NCBI GenBank assembly: GCA_017459675.1
Contig: JAFUCM010000019.1
Span: 1-43,558, forward strand
Length of the DNA stretch: 43,558 nt
Reading direction: 5' to 3'
Source of the DNA: Eubacterium sp.
Lineage (GTDB): Bacteria > Bacillota > Clostridia > Lachnospirales > Lachnospiraceae
Shown here: positions 22,095 through 33,280 of the stretch, in pieces
Numbering within the stretch: position 1 is the stretch's first letter
Layout of the letters: each line of letters begins with the position of its first letter
Translations under genes and position numbers: made by a program
Notes under the pieces: model-generated
What the model saw: the letters and a program-made list of their open reading frames with translations, nothing else
Told to the model about the DNA's origin: nothing
Databases searched by the model: none

Positions 22095-23129
22095 TCACGC
22101 ATCAAACCGTGTTAAATTCCAGTTGCGGATGATCGCGCAGATTTCCTTCACATAGGAACGTGAAGTCGCGTAGCCGCCTTTCCAGATGATTTTAGCAGCT
22201 TTTTTATAATTCGTGCAGCCTTTCAGGCCTTCATAACGCAGATTTCCGGATTCGTTCCTGGCACCCAGCAGATAGGCACTGTGGTCTTCGATCGACTTCT
22301 CAATGCTGGGATATTTCCGGAAGTCCGCTGTGATGACCGTCTCGACACCCGGTGTATACTCTTCCTTCGTTTTCTTGGTATAAGACGAACTGCCGTTCCA
22401 GGCTGAACCCGGCCAGGTATTGCCGGAGAGATAGGTCTTCATCCCGAAACAGTTATTTGCCATCAGCGCAAGCTCGGAGCGGCCGTACCAGCTCTCCAGG
22501 ATAAACTGGGCCATGCTCAGAGATGCGAGCACACCGGTTTTCTCCTGATCTTCTGTAAAGAGCGGTCCCATTTTTTCTACAATCTCAGCCTCTGACAGGC
22601 CCATGAGCGTCCAGGTCTTGGTTCCCTTGCCCTTCTTTGTGGCTTTCTTTGCCTTGCTGCGCGTCACCTTCTTCGTCAGGACGCCGTCGCTGTCAAACAC
22701 ATAGAGCGTCTTCTTCATGATGTGGTGATCCGTGAGCATGTGCCCGTCTTTGTCATAGTAATATTTCTTGCCTTTGGCCTTGCGCCAGCCGGTTTTCATC
22801 GCGCCGGTCTTTTTGTTGAAGTAGTAATAATACCCCTTGATTTTCTTCGCGCCGGTCACCATCGCACCGGTTTTCTTATCATAGAAAACACGGATTGTTT
22901 TTCCCTTATAAACAATTGTCTGAAATCCTTTTTTCAGTTTCCCGTTCGCAAAAAGATATTTCTTTCCGTCGATTTTTTTCTGGCCGGTGTAAGGTGCGCC
23001 GTTTTTATAATACAGGGTATGATCTTTGTTCCATCCGTTCAGCGGTTCTGCACGGACAACCGAAACAGATGACAGAAATACCGTCAGGGTCAGGATCAGT
23101 ATAAAAGTCTTTTTGATCAAATGTTTCAT
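22095..23129 (-). CDS. Secreted N-acetylglucosaminidase with cell-wall-binding repeats
   Basis: A 344-aa exported peptidoglycan hydrolase. A signal peptide (KKTFILILTLTVFLSSVSVVRA) is followed by four to five aromatic repeats of the choline/wall-binding type (LYYKNGAPYTGQKKIDGKKY, YYYFNKKTGAMKTGWRK), a Lys-rich linker, and a C-terminal glucosaminidase (FlgJ/LytG) domain with QFILESWYGRSELA and NNCFGMK; Glu of ILES is the catalytic candidate. It would cut glycan strands during growth or separation. It directly precedes, in transcription direction, the YfbR region, and its promoter region abuts the tRNA-Leu remnant and its terminator. Confidence 0.93.
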   Translation of the reverse strand: MKHLIKKTFILILTLTVFLSSVSVVRAEPLNGWNKDHTLYYKNGAPYTGQKKIDGKKYLFANGKLKKGFQTIVYKGKTIRVFYDKKTGAMVTGAKKIKGYYYYFNKKTGAMKTGWRKAKGKKYYYDKDGHMLTDHHIMKKTLYVFDSDGVLTKKVTRSKAKKATKKGKGTKTWTLMGLSEAEIVEKMGPLFTEDQEKTGVLASLSMAQFILESWYGRSELALMANNCFGMKTYLSGNTWPGSAWNGSSSYTKKTKEEYTPGVETVITADFRKYPSIEKSIEDHSAYLLGARNESGNLRYEGLKGCTNYKKAAKIIWKGGYATSRSYVKEICAIIRNWNLTRFDA

Positions 23130-23159: not shown

Positions 23160-23267
23160 ATAAGCACGCGCAAGATAATACTATCTCAAACGTGCTTACC
23201 TCATGAACCTGCCGCAGGTCGGGGTCGAACCGACACGGGTATCACTACCCACGGGATTTTAAGTCCC
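23160..23267. repeat. Left attachment-site repeat with tRNA-Leu remnant
   Basis: All 108 bases equal 33145-33252. Bases 23210-23267 are the 3' 58 bases of tRNA-Leu(UAA), from the anticodon arm to the discriminator base; the rest holds a terminator stem (AAGCACG and CGTGCTT). Only this copy keeps a T-rich tail after the stem (TTATTTTATT on the minus strand), so it represents the original host tRNA 3' end. The remnant has no 5' half and is not a functional tRNA. Confidence 0.92.
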
Positions 23268-23413
23268 CTAAAAATGCGATAGTTTAAAATGTCCTGTATT
23301 TACGAGGTTTTTCTAGCCTTTTATTTATTGCCAAATGCCTTAAGCCCACTTGATTGTTACACCTTCATTATACTATTCCACAACAATAAACACAACAAAA
23401 TTGTTCTCTACTT
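23268..23413. other. Left-end noncoding DNA with integrase arm-type motif
   Basis: A+T-rich stretch between the left repeat and the first small ORF. TTAAGCCCACTTGAT at 23340-23354 recurs as TTAAGTCCACTTGAC at 33034-33048 inside the right end, in the same orientation; these are likely arm-binding sites for the integrase. No gene is seen. Confidence 0.5.
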
Positions 23414-23617
23414 TCAATTAATATTCCCCACTATAGATTGACGCATTTTCAAAATCAATTTACAATAATTGTTATAAAACACCTTACGCATCTGGGCGCG
23501 TTTTCTGTGATGTGGCGCGTCCGGATGATGCACAAGGCGTTTTAGGAAACTGTAAACCGTGTCTTTTCGTTTACTGTTTCTCGATTTTTCCATTTCATTT
23601 TTCAAAATTCCTTTCAT
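23414..23617 (-). CDS. Small basic protein of unknown function (doubtful)
   Basis: An open frame of 67 codons at the left end of the element, encoding a Lys/Arg/His-rich peptide (KRKDTVYSFLKRLVHHPDAPHHRKR). No ribosome site sits at a convincing distance: AAAGGA overlaps the first codons. It lies downstream of a strong minus-strand terminator, so it would need its own promoter. Position next to the attachment site and basic charge would suit an excisionase-like protein, but no excisionase motif is recognised. It may be a chance frame. Confidence 0.3.
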   Translation of the reverse strand: MKGILKNEMEKSRNSKRKDTVYSFLKRLVHHPDAPHHRKRAQMRKVFYNNYCKLILKMRQSIVGNIN

Positions 23618-23627
23618 TCAAAATCAG

Positions 23628-23658
23628 AGTCTGTTCCGATCGGTCAGGCTCTTTTTTT
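23628..23658 (+). terminator. Plus-strand terminator with no visible gene
   Basis: GAGTCTG and CAGGCTC (7 bp with one G-U) around an 11-base loop, followed by seven T on the plus strand. Any transcript it ends would have to come from 23.27-23.63 kb, where no plus-strand gene is convincing. Confidence 0.5.
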
Positions 23659-23667
23659 GTTGGGCGT

Positions 23668-23700
23668 AAAAAAATCGGGGCAAGCGGTATTGCCTGCCCC
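23668..23700 (-). terminator. Terminator of the leftward satellite operon
   Basis: Minus-strand stem GGGGCAGGC / GCTTGCCCC (9 bp, one G-U pair), 6-base loop, then GA and seven T. It lies 31 bases after the stop of the 336-aa gene and closes the long leftward transcription unit. Confidence 0.85.
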
Positions 23701-23730
23701 TTCAAAAGAAAGAAGTACTTTCGGATATTG

Positions 23731-24741
23731 TCAGCGCATCCGCGCAGATGCGTTATTGCTCTCACTAACTCGGATATCTCTTAGTGTTTGTTCGGTCTTT
23801 TCATGTCGAACCTTCTGTGCAATTTGTCGTGCGTTCTCCATTGCCTGTTTAAGTGCATCCTGTGCGGTTTCCTGTTCCATAAGATGCATTTCCAGTATCT
23901 GTCGCTTTGCGCGATCATATGTCCGTTTATCATAAATACTAAGTCGCGGTTCAAGGTCTGGTTTTGCCAGAATCAGAGTTTTCATTCGCTCCACTTTTGC
24001 AGTATCATCGGAACATCCAGTAAACAGTTCTGCAATTACGGATTCTTCGGTTTTTATCAGCGTAATGGTGTTATCGGTTGCTGTGGTAATGGTTTCTTCA
24101 AATCGTGCCAGTGTGGAGTCATCGCGCTTCAAGAAGTCAATCGCAAGACCTGCCATCATTGGATTATCATATGCTGTATGATTGTTCAGTTCCGTTATCC
24201 AGTTCAACGAACTATCAGTACCTTGGTATGCATTGAGAACCGATTCAACATCTGATTTTGCTGTGTTCATTGCTCGGTTTATCTCGTCCAGTGAAACATG
24301 CGGATAATGCAGTCCCTGTTCTTCTGCCATCTGGTGCAGAATCTTTTGTGCAAAATAGTTTCCGGATGAAAGCTGTGATAACATTTCAATTTCACTCTGT
24401 GTTGCTTTCGCTCCTGCCAACTGCAGTGCAGATGTGATACTGATAAATGATTCCGGTACAGGTTCGGCAATCCATGTTGCAAGCGTACCTGCGATATCAT
24501 CAAATTCAAACTCGATCTGGGCAACTGCTACGGATGCCGATGACGCTACAGATGTTTGCGCATCCCTTCGGATATTGGCGGTTGCTTCCGCCAGTGCCTG
24601 CGGATTATATTTCTGTTCTGCGTTCTCCAGTGATTTTTTTGTCTTATCACAAATGCTGTCAACTTCCGCAATATGATCTCCGACAATTTTTCTGATATTT
24701 GCAAGTGCTGTTTGGATGCGTGTGTAGTAATTGCGTTTCAT
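23731..24741 (-). CDS. 336-aa coiled-coil-rich protein of unknown function
   Basis: Not recognised. The start at 24741 has AAAGGA six bases upstream; the longer open frame adds 39 residues read out of the previous gene. The protein is Ala/Glu/Thr-rich, mostly helical, with no membrane segment or signal peptide. The ends look like coiled coils (ITALANIRKIVGDHIAEVD-like N-terminus; DALKQAMENARQIAQKVRHEK near the C-terminus). It is the last and largest gene of the microprotein cluster. In phage satellites this place often holds capsid-remodelling or packaging-interference genes, and a helical scaffold-like make-up would fit, but that is speculation. Confidence 0.75.
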   Translation of the reverse strand: MKRNYYTRIQTALANIRKIVGDHIAEVDSICDKTKKSLENAEQKYNPQALAEATANIRRDAQTSVASSASVAVAQIEFEFDDIAGTLATWIAEPVPESFISITSALQLAGAKATQSEIEMLSQLSSGNYFAQKILHQMAEEQGLHYPHVSLDEINRAMNTAKSDVESVLNAYQGTDSSLNWITELNNHTAYDNPMMAGLAIDFLKRDDSTLARFEETITTATDNTITLIKTEESVIAELFTGCSDDTAKVERMKTLILAKPDLEPRLSIYDKRTYDRAKRQILEMHLMEQETAQDALKQAMENARQIAQKVRHEKTEQTLRDIRVSESNNASARMR

Positions 24742-24760
24742 GTGTTGTCCTTTCCGTACA

Positions 24761-24943
24761 TTAAATGTACTGTTTGATAATTGAATTGTGTTTTTCGGTC
24801 GTGTCCAAATACTTTTGGATTCGCTCGGATGTCGGTGTAGCTGTCTCCGGAACATCACGGTGCGTTGTCATCATCAAATATTGAATAACAGGACTCGGAT
24901 GTTCATCTGTTAGATATGCGTTAAGGATTTCCTCTTTCGTCAC
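24761..24943 (-). CDS. 60-aa acidic microprotein
   Basis: Start is the GTG at 24943, with AAGGAG nine bases upstream; an upstream ATG in frame lacks a ribosome site. The product begins MTKEEILNAYLTDEHPSP and is helical and acidic, with no known motif. It overlaps the 3' end of the next upstream microgene by 23 bases and lies 19 bases before the 336-aa gene, so the genes are translated from one message. Confidence 0.65.
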   Translation of the reverse strand: MTKEEILNAYLTDEHPSPVIQYLMMTTHRDVPETATPTSERIQKYLDTTEKHNSIIKQYI

Positions 24944-25091
24944 AGTCGTTTTCTCCTTCCTGCAGGCTGTTAAGCGCATGTAGTACGCCACGATAAAAAG
25001 CACGTTCATATGGTGTGGCGCGTAGCTTGTTCTTCCGATTAAGTGTCGCTTCTGCCTGCTGTCGTAGTGCGTTTACGATTTCTCTGTTCAT
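24921..25091 (-). CDS. 56-aa microprotein, AFYRG motif
   Basis: ATG at 25091 with AAGGGG seven bases upstream; stop at 24921. The product reads MNREIVNALRQQAEATLNRK at the N-terminus and contains YERAFYRGVLHAL, which resembles AYYRGIRFAATEIL in the neighbouring 60-aa protein, so the two may be diverged duplicates. The start overlaps that neighbour's stop as ATGA. The gene is shorter than common gene-calling cut-offs. Function unknown. Confidence 0.65.
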   Translation of the reverse strand: MNREIVNALRQQAEATLNRKNKLRATPYERAFYRGVLHALNSLQEGENDCDERGNP

Positions 25092-25270
25092 GCCGTTGCC
25101 CCTTGCAGATGCTTTGCAGTCCTTAAAATCTCCGTTGCGGCAAATCGGATGCCGCGATAATAAGCGGTGGTTTCCGGTGGCAATGATCTCTGTAATTGCA
25201 TCATCGAAAACTCTTTCATTTTCTCAATATCAGAAACAAGCTGTCTTGCTGTGTATGGTGTATCATTCAT
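25088..25270 (-). CDS. 60-aa microprotein, AYYRG motif
   Basis: Begins MNDTPYTARQLVSDIEKM, with GGAAGGAG ten bases before the ATG. Predicted to be all-helical and soluble. AYYRGIRFAATEILR near the C-terminus matches the AFYRG motif of the next gene. The stop is fused to the next start (ATGA), a sign of coupled translation. No known domain. Confidence 0.7.
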   Translation of the reverse strand: MNDTPYTARQLVSDIEKMKEFSMMQLQRSLPPETTAYYRGIRFAATEILRTAKHLQGATA

Positions 25271-25436
25271 TTTTTTTGCGCTCCTTCCTGCCGCTGATAC
25301 TGATATGAAAAGACATATCCTTCAATATTGCGGCAAAATCTTTATCTGCCGGTTGCTCAACTGGTGCAGGCGGTTTCAGTGAAATAATTTCAGCCAAACG
25401 AGCCGCCTTGTCAGATGGTTTGTGTTTTCGTTTCAT
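25263..25436 (-). CDS. 57-aa basic microprotein
   Basis: ATG at 25436 with AAGGA about ten bases upstream; the product starts MKRKHKPSDKAARLAEIISL and ends in a Lys/Arg/Glu tail (GRKERKKNE). It overlaps the next gene by 8 bases and encodes that gene's ribosome site in its own tail. No motif is recognised. Confidence 0.65.
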   Translation of the reverse strand: MKRKHKPSDKAARLAEIISLKPPAPVEQPADKDFAAILKDMSFHISISGRKERKKNE

Positions 25437-25529
25437 TGGTCGCTATTCCTTATATACTGTGCAGATTCTGAACAAGAAAAGATAATACCCTAACATATGT
25501 ACCCTTCTTGCCTGTTCTGCGATCTCTGC

Positions 25530-25712
25530 TTATTCCTGTATAAGCGGAGTCGGCGTAGAATTAACTTCTGCATTGTCGTTTGACGGTGCTTTCATTCTCC
25601 GTAACGATGCGACACTGTTTAACCACTTCGCCAACTGTTCCTGCGATATGATATCTAGACAATACAATTCAAGTAGTGTTGATATGGATAGTTCTTTTTT
25701 ATTTCGCTTCAT
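25530..25712 (-). CDS. 60-aa microprotein with possible HTH
   Basis: Start taken as the ATG at 25712, with AAAGGG nine bases upstream. ISTLLELYCLDIISQEQLAKWL could form a helix-turn-helix; the tail is Pro/Thr-rich and probably disordered. It overlaps the preceding gene by 14 bases. Function unknown; a DNA-binding role is only a guess from the helix pattern. Confidence 0.65.
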   Translation of the reverse strand: MKRNKKELSISTLLELYCLDIISQEQLAKWLNSVASLRRMKAPSNDNAEVNSTPTPLIQE

Positions 25713-25881
25713 GCTGTTTTGCCCTTTCAAATGCATTCCGCATAATCACGTTGTCAATCATGGAAAGCACCATTGACCATGACGGATTCCGCGATAGTTT
25801 CAGTGACCGGAATAATGATTTACGGATTTTTCTGAGTTCTTTGTTTGATAAACTGTTAAAATAATCATTTAATGTATCCAC
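25699..25881 (-). CDS. 60-aa basic helical microprotein
   Basis: Probable GTG start at 25881 with AGAGGT seven bases upstream, giving MDTLNDYFNSLSNKELRKIR; a TTG further upstream is in frame but leads through a poly-Lys run. The protein is basic and helical (SLFRSLKLSRNPSW). It is the first gene of the microprotein cluster after the long noncoding gap. Confidence 0.6.
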   Translation of the reverse strand: MDTLNDYFNSLSNKELRKIRKSLFRSLKLSRNPSWSMVLSMIDNVIMRNAFERAKQHEAK

Positions 25882-26311
25882 GGTTTGTACCTCTTTTTTG
25901 TTTTTTTGTTTTTTCAATTTGTCGCACAACTAACTGCTAACAAGCCTAGGATATATCCATCCTACTACCCCGACTGCCCTCTGCCCACGCTACTGTTGTT
26001 TGAAAATCGCTCGATTTCGGCGTTTTCAGATGTTAGACAAGGATTTGTCCATTGATGCTGATAAAATGGATTCTAGCGCGTTCCTGTCGTTGTACAGACA
26101 TACATCAGGACATCAGGAAAGCTGTTGTGTTGTCTCTTGGTTTCTGTGTCGCTTGCTGTTATACAGAAGCATCAGCACCTGCTTTCATTGGTGTTAATCC
26201 ATGTGATCATCAATCAAGTGGATTCCTGTTTTGCCTGTATTTATGCGGTTTCTTGGCGTTTTCGGATGCATCTGACTCGGTTAAGTCCACTTGATCTCCG
26301 TAAAACAGACA
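25882..26311. other. 430-base gap next to terS, candidate cis-acting packaging or replication site
   Basis: No convincing gene on either strand. The gap holds two copies of GGCGTTTTC[AG]GATG (about 26022 and 26254), and an inverted pair of the integrase-arm-like word: AATCCACTTGAT on the minus strand (26213-26224) and TTAAGTCCACTTGAT on the plus strand (26281-26295). A GTG-started 26-codon frame with GGAG upstream at the terS-proximal edge may be translated. In cos- and pac-type satellites the packaging site lies beside terS, so this is the best place to look. Confidence 0.4.
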
Positions 26312-26920
26312 TCAATTATCATCCATTTGTGGCAGTGTTGGACGTTCCACATTCCGATATTTCATCATTATCTGTTCTGGTGTTTGGGATGCTCCATTGC
26401 TTTCCTGTTCACCTATGGTTAATGGTGCTGTCTCGCGCCAATTATGTGAACATTTCAATGCGAAAATCGAGCCGATGCTGTTTGACATAATAGCTCGATC
26501 CTCTAATGCACCTTCACATTCAGCCTTCCAATCTTTTACCGCTTTAAAGTGTGAAAGTGTTTTATTCCTCGACCGTTCCGCTTGCCAATTACTGAACGTC
26601 ACTGCAGATATTCCAATCATCAGACCAAACTTTGCCAGTGTTGGAACATGACCATATGTATAACAGACATCCGTAAACATATCCCACAAGCTGTTCAGCA
26701 GGTCAACATCTTCTAGGTTGACGGTGGTTCTGGTGTTGTGCAGTTGTGTTCCGGATGCTCGGAATATCTCTTTGTAAACAGTTTTCAACAGTCCACGGAA
26801 ACAAGCGGTTTCTTTGATCATTGTTGGGTCTGGCAATGATTCAACATATTGAGCCGCGATAGCTTCAACCCTGTTCCGATAAACCGTGATCTGTTCGCCG
26901 CTGTCGGTTGTAACATTCAT
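26312..26920 (-). CDS. terS: Phage-type terminase small subunit
   Basis: A 202-aa DNA-packaging initiator. A helix-turn-helix at about 93-115 (PTLAKFGLMIGISAVTFSNWQ) is followed by a helical oligomerisation region and the segment SIFALKCSHNWRE (about 151-163), typical of small terminases of Gram-positive siphophages. TerS recognises the cos/pac site and recruits the large subunit, yet no large subunit is encoded in this element. Satellites use such a gene to redirect a helper phage's packaging motor. The ATG at 26920 overlaps the previous stop as ATGA, and AAAGGAG lies ten bases upstream. The identification rests on motif pattern, not on a search. Confidence 0.75.
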   Translation of the reverse strand: MNVTTDSGEQITVYRNRVEAIAAQYVESLPDPTMIKETACFRGLLKTVYKEIFRASGTQLHNTRTTVNLEDVDLLNSLWDMFTDVCYTYGHVPTLAKFGLMIGISAVTFSNWQAERSRNKTLSHFKAVKDWKAECEGALEDRAIMSNSIGSIFALKCSHNWRETAPLTIGEQESNGASQTPEQIMMKYRNVERPTLPQMDDN

Positions 26921-27288
26921 TCCGGTGTTTCTCCTTTCTGCCTGTCGTGCTGACAAGCTGTTTCGGTTCTGCGTTTTGTAATCTCACGTTGTATTTGCTC
27001 CAGTGCCTGTTCACGGTGCAAACGGTCTTGCTCAATTTGTTCGCGCCATCGCTTTACTTTGCGCTCCTGTGCAGTACCATCACGCAGGTCATCAACTAAA
27101 TATGCTCGGTAACTGGTGCTTTCAATCATCAGGCTTGAAAAAAAATAAAAATCCTTTTCGCATCGCCATGCTTCGGTTGCCTGTCGGCGCGTCAATGTCG
27201 GGCGTTGTCGCGTTGGTCTTTCCTGTAAATCTCCGACATAATCATCATCAAGCGGTGCGGCTCTGGTTTGATAAACTTCACGAGACAT
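26917..27288 (-). CDS. 123-aa charged protein between HNH and terS
   Basis: Not recognised. The N-terminus is Arg/Asp-rich and probably disordered; the C-terminus is a basic coiled coil (KVKRWREQIEQDRLHREQAL). The start overlaps the HNH stop as TGATG and the stop overlaps the terS start as ATGA, so HNH, this gene and terS are tightly coupled and probably work together. An accessory packaging factor is plausible from position alone. Confidence 0.75.
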   Translation of the reverse strand: MSREVYQTRAAPLDDDYVGDLQERPTRQRPTLTRRQATEAWRCEKDFYFFSSLMIESTSYRAYLVDDLRDGTAQERKVKRWREQIEQDRLHREQALEQIQREITKRRTETACQHDRQKGETPE

Positions 27289-27602
27289 CACATTAACCCA
27301 CGTTCTCTAAGTGATATGCGCACGCCAAACGGCAGGCGTGATGCCCATCCGCGCTGATGCGGAGCAGTCAGTCGATTCATCAAAACATGTGTGTTCAAAT
27401 GACATTCCGGACACATGCTTGCAAGGTCTACCCATGGGTCTTCATTTGCCAGTGATTTATATCCGAAATGGTGTACTTCAAGCGCGTTTCCTAACTCTTT
27501 GCCACACATGCAACATCTTCCGGAATCAATCGTGATACGTTGGATGCGTTTCTCTTGCCATTCCGGTGATTTCAAATATTCTGTGTAATAACTGGATGCC
27601 AT
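27288..27602 (-). CDS. HNH endonuclease
   Basis: A 104-aa nuclease with the compact HNH architecture: a CxxC zinc pair at about 30-33, EVHHFGYKS (catalytic His at about 44-45), NEDPWVDLASMCPECH with a second CxxC and the final His at about 64-68. ATG at 27602 with AAAGGA eight bases upstream; the longer frame adds 15 residues from a repeated ATGACCGCTGAC segment. HNH nucleases next to terminase genes assist cos cleavage in HK97-like phages. Here it is coupled to terS by overlapping codons, which supports a packaging role. Confidence 0.85.
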   Translation of the reverse strand: MASSYYTEYLKSPEWQEKRIQRITIDSGRCCMCGKELGNALEVHHFGYKSLANEDPWVDLASMCPECHLNTHVLMNRLTAPHQRGWASRLPFGVRISLRERGLM

Positions 27603-27681
27603 ATATAAAATCCTTTCCACGCCTAGCTGTCTGGCGTCAGCGGTCATGTCTATACATGATCGGTGTCAACGTGTATCTGTT

Positions 27682-27783
27682 TCACGGTAGCGAAACACCA
27701 TCTGCAGGCGTTCCGGTGTCATCATGTAACTTGGTCATGTCAGCGGTCATACCTTCGTGTTGTATGATCGGTTCTGAAATCAT
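27682..27783 (-). CDS. Possible 33-aa peptide overlapping the DnaD-like stop
   Basis: The ATG overlaps the stop of the upstream gene as ATGA and the frame runs 33 codons (MISEPIIQHEGMTADMTKLH). No own ribosome site is seen; coupling would be needed. The word ATGACCGCTGAC in this frame recurs at the in-frame upstream end of the HNH gene, so the gap may come from a partial duplication. Coding is uncertain. Confidence 0.3.
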   Translation of the reverse strand: MISEPIIQHEGMTADMTKLHDDTGTPADGVSLP

Positions 27784-28934
27784 TGCAAATCATCAAATGC
27801 CGTTGGATTCGGTATAAAAGGTTTTGGTTTTGGTGGTTTCTGTGTTGGTTTGTATGAGGCCTGCTGTTTTCGTATCTTCGCAACAAGTGCATCATTCTGG
27901 CATATTGCAATATCTGGTTCGTGAAACAGTTCTACGATGCCGACTTGCATATCAACTGTGATAATGCCAGATTCAAACATCTCAATTAGTTCTGCTTCGG
28001 TGAATGCATTATCATCATGATCAAATTTGAACTCTGTTTCTGTATACTCCGACATCCAATATAAATCGTTTGCAAGGTATTCATCATACTTTGTCCATTT
28101 CCGACCTTTCAGATATTCGACAAAATCCTGTCCGGAAGTAAAGTATGTATCACCTTGCCAGTGCTTGGCTTCTTCCTCTGAACGCAGGCGTTTTTCCTCG
28201 GCTTTGCGCTCGGCTTCTTTCTTTGCTTTGGCTATTCGTGGGGCAAGTGCTTCATCCGTGAATCTCCTGTCTCGGTTTAAAAACTGCCTTAACAATGTTC
28301 CCCACGACATTTTCTTAAGTTTGTTCCAGTTGTATGATTGATTCAGCGAAATAAATGCTTCTGTTTGTTCTCTGGCTTCTGTATCAGTCAAACAAAAATC
28401 ATTCGATGTTAGCAGGTTGTATACCATTTCGGATGTAGGGATATCATGTTCCGTAGAATCAGGGGGAAAAGAATAAGTAAGTGTGTCGTTAGTTATTCCC
28501 TGCTCCGCACTACTCACCTCACTTGTACTCACCTCACCTGAACTCAACTTTACTTTGCGCGTGTCACTCGTGGGTTTAGGTGCTTTTTTGCCTGTATTAT
28601 CAAGCAATTTGATGTTTGGAAAATGTTCTTGTAATGTATCATGGTAGTTCGAGCATCGTGCGTACCTTGTATCAGGGTGGTTGAAATCGTGCCATCCGTT
28701 TGTATAAACAATGTTTTCAGATGGTTCTATGATTGTCACAAAACCGTTTTCAACCAGTTCCTTTAGTGCGGTTTTTCTTGTTTGCGTAACTCTCAAAACA
28801 GTACCTGCTTCTGTTACACCTTCATCATCGGACTCAATGACAATGTGCATGTAAAGTGCCTGCGCAGCTTTTCCCATTTTCAGAAATCGCAAACTGCCTA
28901 TAATTGCCTTATCAATAAATCGCTTGTTTGCCAT
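27780..28934 (-). CDS. DnaD-like/winged-helix replication initiation protein
   Basis: A 384-aa protein. The N-terminal winged helix (RFLKMGKAAQALYMHIVIESDDEGVT...TRKTALKELVENGFVTII, then HDFNHPDTRYARC) is typical of phage replisome organisers. The middle is a variable acidic linker, then a DnaD-like helical part (LTDTEAREQTEAFISLNQSYNWNKLKKMSWGTLLRQFLNRDRRF). Such proteins open an origin and load the host helicase. A Lys/Glu coiled coil (about 230-255) and a Pro-rich tail (TQKPPKPKPFIPNPTAFDD) follow. The start overlaps the previous stop as TAATG. It is the likely replication function of the element. Confidence 0.75.
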   Translation of the reverse strand: MANKRFIDKAIIGSLRFLKMGKAAQALYMHIVIESDDEGVTEAGTVLRVTQTRKTALKELVENGFVTIIEPSENIVYTNGWHDFNHPDTRYARCSNYHDTLQEHFPNIKLLDNTGKKAPKPTSDTRKVKLSSGEVSTSEVSSAEQGITNDTLTYSFPPDSTEHDIPTSEMVYNLLTSNDFCLTDTEAREQTEAFISLNQSYNWNKLKKMSWGTLLRQFLNRDRRFTDEALAPRIAKAKKEAERKAEEKRLRSEEEAKHWQGDTYFTSGQDFVEYLKGRKWTKYDEYLANDLYWMSEYTETEFKFDHDDNAFTEAELIEMFESGIITVDMQVGIVELFHEPDIAICQNDALVAKIRKQQASYKPTQKPPKPKPFIPNPTAFDDLQ

Positions 28935-29311
28935 TATCCGTTATCCCTCACTCGTTCAAGCTGATGTTCCAGAAACGTGTTATAGATTTTCAGAAAATGG
29001 TTTTCATCAACAAGACCTGCAATGTTGGCAACATCTTCCAAAAGAACATCAATCGGTGTGAATTCCGGAACGGATGGTTTTGTGTGTCGTGTCGTTTCAA
29101 TATCCACCAGATGCATGAAATCCAGAAGCGCATCAAATACTGCTCCAGTGTCGCTGATTGGATTCATGTCATCATCATAGTGTGTACAGAGTTCGCCGCC
29201 GGTCATCACCTGTGTCAGTTCTTCGGTGATGTCGGTCAATTCTCCATGCGCTGACGCTGAGTAAACTGCTGATACAAAATTGTCTAGTGCCTTTTGTGTA
29301 GTATGCTTCAT
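28934..29311 (-). CDS. 125-aa acidic protein of unknown function
   Basis: Not recognised. Strongly acidic and helical, with no zinc or nucleotide motif (GELTDITEELTQVM, DVLLEDVANIAGLVDE). GAGGGG lies ten bases before the ATG. It stands between the HTH gene and the replication gene in the first part of the leftward operon and shares the TAATG overlap with the latter, so a role in replication control is possible. Confidence 0.75.
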   Translation of the reverse strand: MKHTTQKALDNFVSAVYSASAHGELTDITEELTQVMTGGELCTHYDDDMNPISDTGAVFDALLDFMHLVDIETTRHTKPSVPEFTPIDVLLEDVANIAGLVDENHFLKIYNTFLEHQLERVRDNG

Positions 29312-29340
29312 GTTTCAAATTCCCCTCATGTGATGTGTGT

Positions 29341-29529
29341 TTACTGGCTCTTGGCTTGCTGAATCGCTTCAATGGCTTGTAAAATTTCCTGTCGAAAACT
29401 TTCTGGCGGTTCTCGCCGCAGTTTCTTTGAAAACAAGGATTCATCCATGCCCAAATACTCGGAAATTTCCCATTGCCTGACTCGAGCCTGCCGTATGATC
29501 GTCTTGATCGGTAGTGTCGATGTCTGCAT
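29341..29529 (-). CDS. Small helix-turn-helix protein
   Basis: A 62-aa one-domain DNA-binding protein: IKTIIRQARVRQWEISEYLG forms helices one and two and MDESLFSKKLRREPPESFRQ the recognition and following helices, similar to small XRE-like proteins common in Clostridia mobile elements. ATG at 29529 with AAAGGGGTG upstream; the longer open frame runs back through the terminator T-tract. It is the first protein gene behind the element's best promoter, operator and leader RNA, so it is a good candidate for the regulator of the element. Confidence 0.8.
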   Translation of the reverse strand: MQTSTLPIKTIIRQARVRQWEISEYLGMDESLFSKKLRREPPESFRQEILQAIEAIQQAKSQ

Positions 29530-29536
29530 TGATAGT

Positions 29537-29617
29537 TCACCCCTTTCTGAAAAAAATAAAAAAAGAGCCGACATCAGGGTTGCAAGAAAAACGCATTTTC
29601 ATGCGCGGTACGTTCAT
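29537..29617 (-). CDS. Possible 26-aa leader peptide
   Basis: ATG at 29617 preceded by AAGGAAGG at a short but usable distance. The frame runs through the terminator hairpin and its T-tract and stops seven bases before the HTH start (N-terminus MNVPRMKMRFSCNPDVG, then a Phe-rich tail). Its ribosome site and start lie inside the fold, so translation would disrupt the terminator. Confidence 0.4.
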   Translation of the reverse strand: MNVPRMKMRFSCNPDVGSFFIFFRKG

Positions 29618-29651
29618 TTACCTTCCTTGTACAACCTTCAAATGTCAGCTC
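29551..29651 (-). ncRNA. Structured leader RNA ending in an intrinsic terminator
   Basis: Minus-strand RNA begins GAGCUGACAU and ends AUGUCGGCUC (10 pairs, one G-U). Inside, GGUUG/CAACC and CAAG/CUUG extend the stem across a two-base bulge, and two hairpins branch off: GGUA/UACC, and CGCAU/AUGCG with a GAAA loop. The outer stem runs straight into U7-A-U6. This is a strong terminator built on a branched fold, placed just before the HTH gene. With the promoter upstream, the terminated transcript would be about 145 bases: a stand-alone small RNA, an attenuator, or both. Confidence 0.7.
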
Positions 29652-29678
29652 TTGTGCTAGTCGCTGATTTGCCATTCA

Positions 29679-29696
29679 TGTCATATCTTTATGACA
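29679..29696. promoter_or_regulatory. Operator dyad at the transcription start
   Basis: TGTCATA and TATGACA (7-bp arms, 4-base spacer). It covers about +1 to +17 of the promoter just upstream, a place where a bound protein would block transcription. The word TATGACAACT on its edge recurs at 30866-30875 upstream of the Spo11-like gene. Confidence 0.65.
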
Positions 29697-29701
29697 ACTA
29701 T

Positions 29702-29730
29702 ATTTTATCACAAAACAAGTGTTCTGTCAA
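29702..29730 (-). promoter_or_regulatory. Strong sigma-A promoter of the leftward satellite operon
   Basis: Minus-strand TTGACA (29730-29725), a 17-base spacer and TAAAAT (29707-29702). It drives the leader RNA, HTH gene and the replication-packaging genes downstream. The region from here to the inverted repeat at 29875 is A+T-rich and has no gene. Confidence 0.8.
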
Positions 29731-29874
29731 CAAAATAATCAAAATATACCAAATTTTATTTCTACCAACAAAATATATTGCCCTGTAGCATCATTTCAGA
29801 ATTGAGTTGGTCAAGTGTTGAGTGTTTCCGTTAAAATGCCTTAAATCGCGTTTCTGCGCGTCTTGTGATGATAT

Positions 29875-29897
29875 AGGGGAGACATTGCATCTCCCCT
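29875..29897. terminator. Hairpin after the Spo11-like gene
   Basis: Perfect 8-bp arms AGGGGAGA and TCTCCCCT with a 7-base loop, 22 bases after the minus-strand stop. There is no T-tract, so it may be a weak terminator or an mRNA 3' structure. Confidence 0.5.
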
Positions 29898-29919
29898 GTG
29901 CATACCATCCTTGTAATAG

Positions 29920-30808
29920 TTATGCCGACTCCAGACTTTCCGCTATGCGGAGCAGGTATTCTTTCTCCTGTTGCATCTGCTCAACCATTTCATCATACAT
30001 CTGTCTATCCATGTACCGTTCGATATGATCATGAATCAGTTCCGTCAGCACCTCTGGCGGCAATGCGTCCAATTCCCAACTATTTTTCCCATACTTTGAC
30101 GTATAGGCTTCATAACGACTGTCAGATTCTTTTGCAGGATTCACTGGAGGTCGGTACTGCTCGATCTGTTCCATATTGAGTGCAATTCGCTCAAACTTGA
30201 CCATGTCCGGTTTTCCTGTAAAGAGTCCCAGTCTTTCCGGAATGTCGCGTCCCATGTCAATTCCGGATGGCATCATGATCGCCAAGATAAAGTAATACAG
30301 GCTTGTGTCCGTCCTTCGCTTCTCGGCTAAACCTTGTTGCCGCCCGATACATTGCAGTGTCACTGCAGTATCCACGACAAGAAAAACTATCAATGTCATA
30401 ATCACGAGCGGCACTGGAGACAATACCTATCAGCGCGTCCTTCTCACACCAGACTTCTATATAGTGTTCCTGACCTTCCCATAAGTTTATACGATATCTG
30501 TCTGCAGTCGATCTCAGTGCGTCAGATGGATTATCGTAATGATTCCATCCCCTTAAATATCTTGTTCGGTCTTCAATGCTCCACCAGTCAACAAGACCTG
30601 CCCTTCGTGCATCTGATAACAGATTAGATAGGTTACTGTATTCCTTTTGCTTATTGGGGATGATATCGCGTGCAACCAACTGATAATACACCTGACGGAG
30701 AGTTAAACTGTATCCGCTTTGGTTGTATTCGTCAATGATCTTATTGATCTGTTCTATGCGTTCAAGACTCTTTGCGCGAAATGTCTTGTCTATAAATTTC
30801 TGTTTCAT
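29920..30808 (-). pseudogene. Spo11/topoisomerase VI-A-like TOPRIM protein, frameshifted
   Basis: Two frames together make one about 295-aa protein. The N-terminal part has TLRQVYYQLVARDII (tyrosines 41-42, like the catalytic YY of Spo11/TopVIA), SDARRAGLVDWWSIEDRTR, and the TOPRIM glutamate in EVWCEKDALIG (Glu122). The DxD motif is broken: frame one reads LGDHDAIRN-stop; removing one G (plus-strand C at about 30271) restores LGDHDPSGIDMGRDIPERL and continues to RIALNMEQIEQY...NPAKESDSRY. The start at 30808 has AAAGGA. The shift is a mutation, a sequence error or, less likely, programmed. The Spo11 relation is from motif reading only. Confidence 0.75.
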
Positions 30809-30865
30809 GATTTGTCCTTTCTGCTCCGGTGTACGGAGCAACTGTTCTATTCTGATTTAAATTTA

Positions 30866-30939
30866 TATGACAACTTGCGCAAGATTATCATTGTGTCAAG
30901 TCCTGTCGCATAAAGCAACTTAAACTTGGTCAAGACCAA
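30866..30939. promoter_or_regulatory. Palindromes upstream of the Spo11-like gene
   Basis: A perfect 10-bp palindrome CTTGCGCAAG (30874-30883) and TTGGTC-AA-GACCAA (30926-30939) lie 60-130 bases upstream of the start. TATGACAACT at 30866-30875 is shared with the operator of the main leftward promoter. A TTGACA and an A+T-rich -10-like stretch are present but with poor spacing. Confidence 0.45.
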
Positions 30940-30974
30940 TTATATTACTGAATTGATGAAAAAAAAACACAAGC

Positions 30975-31000
30975 AAAAAGGGATGCCGTTGTGACATCCC
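30975..31000 (-). terminator. Terminator after the zinc-protein gene
   Basis: Minus-strand GGGATG / CATCCC stem (6 bp), 9-base loop, then five T and, 10 bases on, a second run of T. It lies 11 bases after the stop and separates the integrase unit from the Spo11-like gene. Confidence 0.75.
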
Positions 31001-31010
31001 CTTGTTTCAA

Positions 31011-31655
31011 TTAATAATTGACGGTATATTCTTTAAAATCGTCCATTTTCCCATATCCGAAAACAGTGCCTAATGGGTAACCCATTCCTATATCAATATC
31101 AAAACTCTTTAACAGAAATAATATGTCATGTAGACCGCCAGATTCATATAACTCTGTCTCATTTAGTATATGTGCATGGTTTGTAATAATATCATCAAGT
31201 TCTGGTAGTGAAGTTCTCAGACTCTTATATAATGACCAAAAAACCATATCATGATAGTGCATAGGTAATTCGTTTATAATCCCTTCATGCATATGTATCA
31301 TCTCATGTAATAATGCAGAATCATCATTAATCGAATTACTAGAAATACACAAGACCTGCTCACTGTGATTGTAGTATCCGTTCATCTCGTCAGTATTTTC
31401 GATTTTCAGACGTATCATCTCTGGTGAGAAAAATTCCAGTACCTCTGGTATCGGTGCGCTATCATCTACCCATTCTTGTGCATTAACATCCTTGGATAGT
31501 ATATGTATTAATTCATAAGTATTACTTCCATAGTGGAACAACATATCCCCAAAATACTCTTGTTCAAATCTGATCATCTTTTCAAATAGGGTCTGTTCAT
31601 CCTCTGTTGCTTCTTGCCAGTACCAATTCATAAACCAGTGTGTATCCATATTCAT
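31011..31655 (-). CDS. SprT-like zinc metallopeptidase-like protein
   Basis: A 214-aa protein with HEMIH (about 117-121) as zinc motif and a following YHDMVFW (His about 135) that would supply the third ligand, the spacing seen in SprT/Spartan-like domains. Residues before it (YNHSEQVLCISSNSINDDSALL) fit the strand-helix lead-in of that fold. The start at 31655 has GAGGA seven bases upstream; the longer frame adds 85 residues through a noncoding gap. SprT-like proteins act on DNA-bound proteins in eukaryotes; in phage elements the role is unknown. It lies between the 84-aa gene and a terminator. Confidence 0.7.
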   Translation of the reverse strand: MNMDTHWFMNWYWQEATEDEQTLFEKMIRFEQEYFGDMLFHYGSNTYELIHILSKDVNAQEWVDDSAPIPEVLEFFSPEMIRLKIENTDEMNGYYNHSEQVLCISSNSINDDSALLHEMIHMHEGIINELPMHYHDMVFWSLYKSLRTSLPELDDIITNHAHILNETELYESGGLHDILFLLKSFDIDIGMGYPLGTVFGYGKMDDFKEYTVNY

Positions 31656-31782
31656 ATGCATTTCCTCATTTATAGAAGAAGGGGCAACATTGAAAGCCGC
31701 CCCTGCCACTAGGTTACTATTCCAGACTCCAACATCCAATATCAATGATATAACACAAAAAGAATAATCACAAAAGTTTATT

Positions 31783-32037
31783 TCACTGGTGTTGCTTTCT
31801 TCGTGCGCGTTCTGCTCTTGTGCCGTGGATTCGTCCAAGCTGATATGCGGAGTGCATTGCCAAGAGAATGCTAAAATCCTTTTTGTCGGTGTAGTGCCGT
31901 ACAATCTCAAACAACATATCTATCGTTTCATCGTCCGGAAAATACTGCTGTTCAAGAATCGTCATCATGGGCGTATCGTCAATTCTATAATCGTGCTTTC
32001 CGTCCGGAATCATCATTGTTGTCCTGTACATCATCAT
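31783..32037 (-). CDS. 84-aa protein downstream of the integrase
   Basis: Start taken at the ATG at 32037, with AAAGGA ten bases upstream. N-terminus is Met-rich (MMMYRTTMMIPDGKHDYRID), middle acidic and helical, C-terminus basic (HGTRAERARRKQHQ). No known domain is recognised. It begins 20 bases after the integrase stop and is likely co-transcribed with it; in that place an excisionase or directionality factor would be expected, but no winged-helix or HTH signature is clear. Confidence 0.7.
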   Translation of the reverse strand: MMMYRTTMMIPDGKHDYRIDDTPMMTILEQQYFPDDETIDMLFEIVRHYTDKKDFSILLAMHSAYQLGRIHGTRAERARRKQHQ

Positions 32038-32056
32038 ATAAACCACTTCCTTTCAT

Positions 32057-33019
32057 TCATGCTGTTCTCATGCGTCCACGGCGTTTCTGAGTAGTATTCT
32101 GAGTTCCAAACTGCACCTGCGGATTGAATGCGTCCACCATGCGTTGACCAACATCCGTACATCCAAGCGATCTCAAATAACCTTCTGTCACTGCAATGTT
32201 GCTATGTCCAAGTGCCTGTTTAACCAGATAAACATCATGCGTTGCTCTGTACAGACTTGCGGCAAATGAATGTCGGAACAAGTGCGCACTGGTTTTTTTA
32301 ACTCCACGTTTAATGTTATATGCTCGGATATATTTTTTGATCGTATTTTTCGCGTATTGCGTACCTGCTCCTGTCGCGAACATATAGTCATTATCAGAAA
32401 GATTGAATATTTTGAAATACTTCCGCAGGATTGACGCGCACTCTGCATTGATGGCAATTCGCAACGGAATATTGGATTTTGTCTGATTTACAATCAGAGT
32501 ATTGTCCGGATACAAGTCCGATACTTTTAATTCCACCAATGAACCGATACGCAGTCCGGAGCATATCAGCAAGTTCTCAATGCACCATGTAATGTATTCA
32601 CATTCGGTGCAATCCCTGTCTGGCTTTTTCAATAGAATACTAAGTTCTTCTGGCGTATACAGTTCTTTGATTTTCTTCTGACATCTCGGTAACTGTACTT
32701 TGAATGGAATGCAATAATCATTGTTCGCTAACCAATACAGAATCACTCGGATGTTCCTGCATGCGCTCTGTATGCTGACATCATTCCGCAGTCCACCATT
32801 CTGTAACACGGAGACAAAATTCTGATAATCTGCTTTTGTCAGGGTGTCCGTCAACGTGTTTTCACCTTCTGGCAAGGTTTTTACAAATTTAGTGAACATG
32901 ATTTCATAAGTTTGCAGTGTTTCATCTGAAAGATTGATTGATCGTTTATCACTGAGAAATTCTTGAAATGCCTGTAAAATAGGGACACTGATTAGTTGGA
33001 GAAATGTCTTATTTACCAT
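32057..33019 (-). CDS. int: Tyrosine recombinase (integrase)
   Basis: A 320-aa site-specific recombinase that should integrate and excise the element at the tRNA-Leu anticodon arm. The catalytic set is complete: Arg157 in CSGLRIGSL, HLFRH (His246, Arg249), GH (His272) and the nucleophile Tyr281 in VTEGYLRS. An N-terminal SAM-like arm-binding domain covers about 12-100. The start at 33019 is supported by AAAGGCGG; the open frame upstream runs through a terminator and the attachment repeat. It sits 126 bases inside the right repeat, the standard place. Confidence 0.95.
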   Translation of the reverse strand: MVNKTFLQLISVPILQAFQEFLSDKRSINLSDETLQTYEIMFTKFVKTLPEGENTLTDTLTKADYQNFVSVLQNGGLRNDVSIQSACRNIRVILYWLANNDYCIPFKVQLPRCQKKIKELYTPEELSILLKKPDRDCTECEYITWCIENLLICSGLRIGSLVELKVSDLYPDNTLIVNQTKSNIPLRIAINAECASILRKYFKIFNLSDNDYMFATGAGTQYAKNTIKKYIRAYNIKRGVKKTSAHLFRHSFAASLYRATHDVYLVKQALGHSNIAVTEGYLRSLGCTDVGQRMVDAFNPQVQFGTQNTTQKRRGRMRTA

Positions 33020-33094
33020 AGATACCGCCTTTCTTAAGTCCACTTGACTATTGAGATTTTTGTGACTTTTTCGGGGCATTCGGTAACTGGAAAT

Positions 33095-33134
33095 AAAAAA
33101 GCTACATGCCTCATATAAATACAAGGAATGTAGC
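33095..33134 (-). terminator. Element-borne terminator downstream of tRNA-Leu
   Basis: Minus-strand GCTACAT / ATGTAGC stem with inner CCT/AGG pairs, followed by six T. It lies 60 bases after the tRNA 3' end and just before the integrase leader, and probably replaces the host tRNA terminator that was separated from the gene by insertion. Confidence 0.75.
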
Positions 33135-33144
33135 CATTTTTCGC

Positions 33145-33252
33145 ATAAGCACGCGCAAGATAATACTATCTCAAACGTGCTTACCTCATGAACCTGCCGC
33201 AGGTCGGGGTCGAACCGACACGGGTATCACTACCCACGGGATTTTAAGTCCC
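33145..33252. repeat. Right attachment-site repeat
   Basis: Identical over all 108 bases to 23160-23267. It covers the tRNA-Leu 3' part from the anticodon arm plus the AAGCACG...CGTGCTT stem. Here the stem is followed by ATGCGAAAAATGG on the minus strand, so the T-tract is absent. Identity ends exactly at 33252, inside the anticodon stem. Confidence 0.92.
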
Positions 33253-33280
33253 GGGCGTCTGCCAATTCCGCCACTGCGGC
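33195..33280 (-). tRNA. tRNA-Leu (UAA)
   Basis: 86 bases. The acceptor stem is GCCGCAG / CTGCGGC with discriminator A; a long variable arm (GTGGGTAGTGATACCC) marks a class II tRNA, and the anticodon loop CTTAAAA gives UAA. TTCGACC supplies the T arm. CCA is not encoded. The 3' 58 bases are supplied by the integrated element. It lies 83 bases after the GH13 gene stop on the same strand; no promoter of its own was resolved. Confidence 0.96.

Follow-up and report, generated by a model that had tools for sequence, protein, structure and literature searches.

What kind of mobile element occupies the tRNA-Leu gene of this DNA, and how might it move between cells? The DNA is a contig of Eubacterium sp. 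(Lachnospiraceae; assembly GCA_017459675.1, contig JAFUCM010000019.1), analysed whole as a window of 43,558 nucleotides, and the element, here called the unit, lies at positions 23160 to 33252. An earlier note, made from the letters alone, had described it as a candidate new phage satellite resembling the phage-inducible chromosomal islands (PICIs). Our analysis, which works from sequence throughout, supports the first half of that description: the unit is probably a phage satellite, a chromosomal island carried in the particles of a helper siphophage, and most likely it would spread by borrowing helper-virus particles. We read it so because it integrated at a site found empty elsewhere, carries an integrase, a replication protein and a terminase small subunit (TerS), and has no recognised structural genes. 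As an integrated element with integration and replication genes of its own and no recognised particle genes, it falls within the broad class of phage satellites. While its gene content, the empty site and the lack of structural profiles all agree with that class, the PICI-like half of the description fared less well, as no divergent repressor was found and the layout is one-way. The features that carry the satellite reading are these.

33145-33252, no strand: attachment repeat at the integrase end, inside tRNA-Leu(TAA); the same site is empty in genome G081
32057-33019, minus: tyrosine integrase, 320 amino acids (Pfam Phage_integrase, 2.6e-23; PHROG integrase)
27780-28934, minus: DnaD-like replication protein or helicase loader, 384 amino acids (phrog_8489, 7.3e-15)
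27288-27602, minus: HNH endonuclease (Pfam HNH, 3.1e-05; PHROG HNH, 2.9e-10)
26312-26920, minus: TerS, 202 amino acids (weak PHROG terminase matches, 0.0022 and 0.021; homologues)
23731-24741, minus: 336-amino-acid protein, the last gene, candidate satellite-associated family (relative near terS in an island of genome G114)
23160-23267, no strand: attachment repeat at the far end, identical to the other repeat at 108 of 108 positions

Integration at tRNA-Leu

The two repeats match at every one of their 108 nucleotides and their starts lie 9985 bp apart, just as the earlier note had stated for the unit and its ends. The tRNA-Leu(TAA) gene occupies 33195-33280 on the minus strand (ARAGORN and Rfam), so that the repeat at the integrase end takes in the 3' part of this gene and extends about 50 bp past it; the near-matches that Rfam gives at a low threshold are tRNA pieces within the repeats. 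GC content is 41.8% inside the unit vs 49.9% and 53.2% in the remaining window. The integrase gene sits at the tRNA end, and all 17 genes called in the unit are on the minus strand, so the claims of an integrase at one end and of confident genes in a single direction also hold.

The site was compared in five genomes of the genus, its own included. In G081 the orthologous site is empty, with a GH13 gene, tRNA-Leu(TAA) and a glucosaminidase gene (protein 81% identical) and nothing between, and insertion at tRNA-Leu is therefore shown, not inferred. The contig of G300 stops at the tRNA, and the matches of G301 start past the tRNA near a contig start; neither is usable for the site. The neighbouring glucosaminidase gene at 22095-23129, which is endolysin-like in PHROGs, lies outside the island, since it is present in the genome with the empty site. 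An open reading frame (ORF) near the far end, 23414-23617, was not called as a gene despite a 46%-identical stretch in genome G299, because the similarity may reflect the DNA end rather than a protein.

G299 carries a related element in the same tRNA-Leu, with an integrase 97% identical to that of the window and left-end DNA 85% identical, although both of its contigs break inside the element. Between the two integrase genes there are 27 synonymous and 9 nonsynonymous codon differences, and on this count the integrase is under selection. The similarity between window and G299 stops behind the integrase, where the following sequence differs. A second G299 element, found at another pair of contig ends, has an integrase 45% identical to that of the window and is bounded by an 85-bp repeat of 98.8% identity (L020:503-587 and L021:1344-1428); its target is the 3' end of a gene that we take, from the end of its protein, to be the membrane pyrophosphatase gene hppA. 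The DNA directly behind the two G299 integrases is 98.7% alike over 232 bases (208 bases in another comparison). The two elements therefore share body sequence but not the integrase, which suggests that integrases may have been swapped on a shared element body.

These observations bear on one alternative, that the unit is what remains of a siphophage, a decayed prophage that lost its late region behind terS and in which the small genes and the 336-amino-acid gene are leftovers or later insertions. We consider this unlikely. The repeats at the two ends are identical, 16 of the 17 genes that we call each run in one open frame, and the G299 relative keeps the site and the ends though the sequence behind its integrase differs; the remaining called gene, split over two frames, is what such decay would give.

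The ends also carry copies of a 14-bp palindrome.

33034-33047, minus: palindrome TCAAGTGGACTTAA, 14 bp, 97 bp inside the repeat and just upstream of int
26281-26294, minus: third copy of the palindrome, just after terS
23340-23353, minus: the palindrome with one mismatch, lying 72 bp in from the far repeat

With up to one mismatch these three sites give five strand-wise matches in the window, a number reached in none of 100 shuffles (maximum 3). The sequence TCAAGTNNACTTAA occurs exactly four times in the five genus genomes, twice in the unit and once beside each G299 integrase. A reversed control pattern occurs five times in the same genomes, so the count is not above chance; the telling part is the placement, as all four true matches fall within the unit or the G299 elements (the places of the control matches are not listed). 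All six ends examined carry a copy 72-154 bp inside the repeat, the six not being independent, as the ends of the window element and the G299 tRNA-Leu element are homologous. The palindrome is exact at the three integrase ends, has one mismatch at the tRNA-Leu left ends of both window and G299, and is looser at the left end of the second G299 element. The simplest reading is that these are arm-type sites of the integrase, or putative sites where it or a partner binds, a reading that does not account for the copy after terS.

Packaging, replication and virion genes

TerS is weak by profile, and the call is backed by its homologues, which precede a large terminase in four of five loci; the small terminase subunit named by the earlier note can thus be kept. 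The homologues (E 3.4e-31 to 1.3e-4) come from 4 of 298 other genomes of the family (299 with its own) and from 1 of 50,697 phage records. The large terminase lies behind terS on the same strand in L007, L008, L009 and L011, a portal was found in all three loci tested for it (L007, L008 and L011) and a major head protein in both that were tested (L008 and L011). At the fifth locus (L010, genome G156) the match is weak and the contig ends right behind terS; this terS was left out of alignment A1, in which no stretch was conserved enough. Stretches of TerS were matched in viral contigs, none confirmed, and none of the other unit proteins matched the five homologue loci. Relatives of terS that stand beside large terminase and head genes would also suit a decayed prophage.

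The DnaD-like protein and the HNH nuclease were both as the earlier note had described them. The former matches two PHROG helicase loader families (7.3e-15 and 1.3e-10) and 29 of the 50,697 phage records, none over more than 80% of its length; Streptococcus satellite phages make up 8 of the 20 matches listed among these 29. Relatives occur in 16 of 397 family genomes, its own included, and the other 15 cover at most the N-terminal 153 residues. In viral contigs some stretches were matched, none confirmed. For the HNH gene, whose ORF opens at 27647, the start at 27602 was chosen by eye. The same part of the unit, and the stretch before it, hold four further features.

29920-30808, minus: phage "DNA topoisomerase" family gene in two frames, with pieces at 30257-30808 and within 29920-30423
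27603-27779, no strand: candidate replication origin, direct repeats (exact, 12 bp and 9 bp) just 3' of the replication gene
26917-27288, minus: 123-amino-acid protein between HNH and terS, overlapping both neighbours
25882-26311, no strand: 430-bp stretch with no called gene after terS, possible packaging site

The repeats of the candidate origin, which was one of seven stretches tested, are rarely equalled in shuffled sequence (the longest repeat in 3 of 1000 shuffles, the repeat coverage in none of 1000), while a 12-bp repeat is also present in 45 of 2000 177-bp stretches drawn at random from the unit, some of which may overlap the candidate origin. As a candidate packaging site, 25882-26311 is a guess: it folds with a z score of -1.65, 5 of 100 shuffles fold as well, there is no excess of repeats, and nothing in it goes beyond chance.

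Both pieces of the topoisomerase gene match phrog_6247 (1.4e-64 and 3.3e-37), and the first matches 74 of the 50,697 phage records. The earlier note's Spo11-like call was therefore right as to kind, with the gene itself split over two frames. Relatives in loci L012 and L013 are single frames; the copy here is broken or misassembled, mutation, assembly error and recoding being the possible causes.

With Pfam and PHROGs, the called genes matched no profile of a large terminase, portal, capsid, tail, holin or lysin. The nearest matches have values above 0.05, among them an Rz-spanin family at 0.061 in one microprotein frame, and matches of this weakness were not taken up. A further 40 ORFs from both strands, selected among the longer ones, gave two marginal PHROG matches only: phrog_11420 ("DNA binding protein", 0.0019) in 29175-29540 on the minus strand, in a frame overlapping the helix-turn-helix (HTH) gene, and phrog_28150 (a family without assigned function, 0.002) in 29372-29788 on the plus strand, the sole plus-strand trace, which was not counted. 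Short or very divergent proteins could escape such profile scans; within them, the claim that the unit has no structural or lytic genes stands, and neither terL nor a capsid gene was found by profile. The set of own capsid and packaging genes that marks capsid-forming PICIs was likewise not seen in the profile scans. P4-like satellites are defined by sid/psu/delta-type genes and a P4-type primase, and no such profile was named among the matches of the called genes. A PADLOC search with ten unit proteins or pieces returned weak matches only (0.0038 to 0.082), which were not taken up, PDB sequence searches gave nothing usable, and an alignment of the integrase matched some stretches in viral contigs, none confirmed.

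The unit could instead be an integrative element of another sort, a mobilizable or cargo island spread by conjugation or natural uptake that holds a phage-like terS by chance. Several of its genes have no assigned function, and its packaging is a prediction from gene content. Replication and packaging genes are, however, of phage types, and no relaxase or conjugation profile turned up in the called genes with Pfam and PHROGs, nor in a further search with ten proteins or pieces (oriT, an origin of transfer, was not looked for); we regard such an element as very improbable.

Several points weigh against a satellite. The order DnaD-HNH-TerS would fit a phage as well, and so a decayed prophage too, and decay would account for the two frames of the topoisomerase-type gene. 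Neither a divergent repressor nor an excisionase was recognised in the called genes and the 40 longer ORFs. We found no relative with the same gene order, and the interior of the nearest one is missing from its bin: the G299 bin has no contig with the remaining interior of its two elements, and the end sequences strongly match only the four broken contigs. A search of the five genus genomes for a large terminase of the L007 kind, run without a positive control, gave no match, so that no helper was picked out there, and TerS is too divergent to name one. Weighed together with the empty site and the gene content, these points leave a satellite as the probable reading.

The 336-amino-acid protein and a second island

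The last gene of the unit encodes a protein that matched nothing in 50,697 phage records or 72,556 plasmids; no match was confirmed in viral contigs, nor among 21 stretches matched in genome contigs. Among 397 family genomes one other genome was matched, G114, with a score of 48.9 bits against at most 29.3 in 5000 shuffles and an identity of 19%. A two-row profile built from this pair and run over 392 genomes of the order picked up its own genome and one marginal fragment; the fragment, in G660 (E 7e-4), was dropped as a relative, being marginal and at a contig edge. The G114 protein itself matched no phage record, and none of its matches in viral contigs was confirmed.

In G114 the relative belongs to an island (L089, 384-10210) bounded by perfect 19-bp repeats at 384 and 10192, about 9.8 kb apart, with a different 28-bp repeat (93%) inside both ends. 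Its genes are one of repressor type (1.6e-5), an excisionase (2e-5), an AAA ATPase of primase/helicase kind, a 133-amino-acid gene, terS (phrog_606, 9.2e-7), a 124-amino-acid gene, the 336-amino-acid relative and an integrase, and no terL or capsid profile was found in the eight genes scanned. When the proteins of the unit and of the G114 island were compared all against all, the 336-amino-acid pair alone was convincing; the integrase (0.004), terS (0.015) and one more pair (0.061) were marginal, and a profile of window-type TerS picks up the G114 TerS at 1e-4. Judged by these comparisons, the two islands have a common protein near terS and are otherwise different. The TerS of G114 was matched in stretches in viral contigs, none confirmed. 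A short "phage" record of 6289 bp from human faeces (L094, MT837742.1) encodes a TerS that has a relative in the one of the G114 island and, by profile, in the one of the window (6e-9); by eye it has a primase-like ATPase and no large terminase among its ORFs, and it may be a piece of a satellite.

The 336-amino-acid family is thus a candidate satellite marker, from two cases only. We predict that the protein is probably a packaging or head-directing factor, because the one relative confirmed for it likewise follows closely on terS, in a second capsid-less island. This relative likewise tells against prophage decay, as in the unit the 336-amino-acid gene and a terminator stand between terS and the end. 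Common to two islands in different hosts and absent from the phage and plasmid collections searched, this protein near terS would offer a marker with which to find the group, and it would be a direct target for learning how such islands take over helper particles.

Control signals, proposed cycle and known systems

The other features of the unit are as follows.

31783-32037, minus: 84-amino-acid protein, ribosome-site-like upstream sequence by eye, no convincing Pfam or PHROG family
31011-31655, minus: 214-amino-acid protein with one HExxH motif, putative cargo, no useful family match
29702-29730, minus: promoter-like site, 11 of 12 matches, with TG before the second hexamer
29555-29655, minus: leader RNA that lies after the promoter-like site and before the HTH gene, a long branched hairpin then a U run
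29341-29529, minus: small HTH-like protein, 62 amino acids (weak PHROG matches, 0.033-0.06, one of them a repressor family)
28934-29311, minus: 125-amino-acid protein, no convincing family (one meaningless Pfam match, 0.039)
24761-25881, minus: six microproteins of 56-60 amino acids, with overlaps or short gaps and ribosome-site-like sequences by eye, no convincing family
23677-23700, minus: terminator-like hairpin at the operon end; a similar hairpin is seen by eye at the G299 ends

The 214-amino-acid protein gave no useful match in Pfam, PHROGs or a PDB sequence search, and none was confirmed in viral contigs; it had been called SprT-like, a name that a single HExxH motif and no supporting profile do not sustain. 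No phage record matched the 125-amino-acid protein. The run of microproteins was found as described, its members lying on the minus strand at 25699-25881, 25530-25712, 25263-25436, 25088-25270, 24921-25091 and 24761-24943. Those at 25088-25270 and 24921-25091 look alike around a Y-R-G stretch by eye and may be old duplicates.

The structured RNA of the earlier note is real as a fold, with a z score of -6.30 over 101 nt (equalled by none of 200 shuffles) and -4.86 over 146 nt, and it belongs to no Rfam family. Its U run ends about 25 nt before the HTH gene. Terminator-like sites are enriched in the unit (16 against 8.8 expected) and promoter-like sites are not (28 against 24.9). The block of about 6 kb from the HTH gene to the 336-amino-acid gene looks like one operon, and a structured leader ending in a terminator would be a plausible on/off switch for it.

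If the unit is a satellite, its cycle might run as follows. On infection by a helper or induction of a helper prophage, the integrase would excise the island as a circle, and the DnaD-like protein would start replication at the cluster of repeats that directly follows its gene. The strong promoter-like site would drive the operon from the HTH gene to the 336-amino-acid gene, with the terminator-ended leader as a switch and the terminator after the 336-amino-acid gene as its end. The island TerS would then take over the large terminase of the helper, the HNH nuclease perhaps helping to cut, and would direct island DNA into helper heads.

Most of what is known about satellites comes from cocci and Proteobacteria, and sampling of gut Clostridia for them is sparse. 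A literature search over titles and abstract openings, with most subscription papers outside its coverage, found no satellites described in Lachnospiraceae or gut Clostridia. Near its edge, a contig of an Eubacteriales metagenome-assembled genome (S8M_St_43, L068:1-10489, JAUNWG010000001.1) encodes, in about 7.5 kb, an integrase, a repressor, a primase-helicase, a head scaffold and a major head protein; this may be a satellite of the capsid-forming kind, or a prophage truncated where the contig stops.

The unit is like the Gram-positive PICIs and the Staphylococcus aureus pathogenicity islands (SaPIs) in having an integrase with a specific attachment (att) site, a terS gene such as some PICIs carry, no recognised structural or lytic genes, a length of about 10 kb, and a replication gene with repeats just 3' of it, which here form the candidate origin. 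PICIs have capsid-remodelling (cpm) and interference (ppi) genes, whereas no profile match in the unit can be read as either. The mean length of PICIs is 9.5 kb and many Firmicutes have them (PMC10803314); the Gram-positive ones have divergent regulators with int on the side of the master repressor, and the Gram-negative ones run one way (PMC6092414). The unit has no recognised divergent master repressor, and its int points in the same direction as all other genes. Since no such repressor was recognised, we do not class it as a standard Gram-positive PICI; its one-way layout resembles that of the Gram-negative PICIs.

The Streptococcus satellite phages Javan368 and Javan624 resemble it in having an integrase at one end, several small genes and a DnaD-type protein homologous over the N-terminal 127-169 amino acids. 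They differ in that int and regulator face away from the rest and a helicase loader gene is present, whereas the unit is one-way, and in that no terS or HNH is annotated in them and many of their genes are hypothetical. The siphophage-type loci L007, L008, L009 and L011, with a large terminase of phrog_38 or phrog_36964, have a homologous TerS (26-34% identity), but there the large terminase follows terS and no other unit protein matched. The G114 island is similar in length, has an integrase, shows repeated sites within each end, and carries a member of the 336-amino-acid family two genes after terS. It differs in its divergent repressor and excisionase, in a primase/helicase-kind ATPase instead of DnaD, and in an unrelated or distantly related integrase with a different att site.

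Against these systems, the lineage of the island and its 336-amino-acid protein are apparently new, while the kind of element is already known. We offer tentatively, as a possibility that we hold to be somewhat doubtful, that there is a separate satellite lineage of gut Clostridia, one-way in layout, with a leader-terminator switch instead of a divergent repressor, with swappable integrases (for tRNA-Leu or a second gene) that keep the end palindromes, and with a satellite-specific 336-amino-acid protein near TerS that would steer helper packaging.

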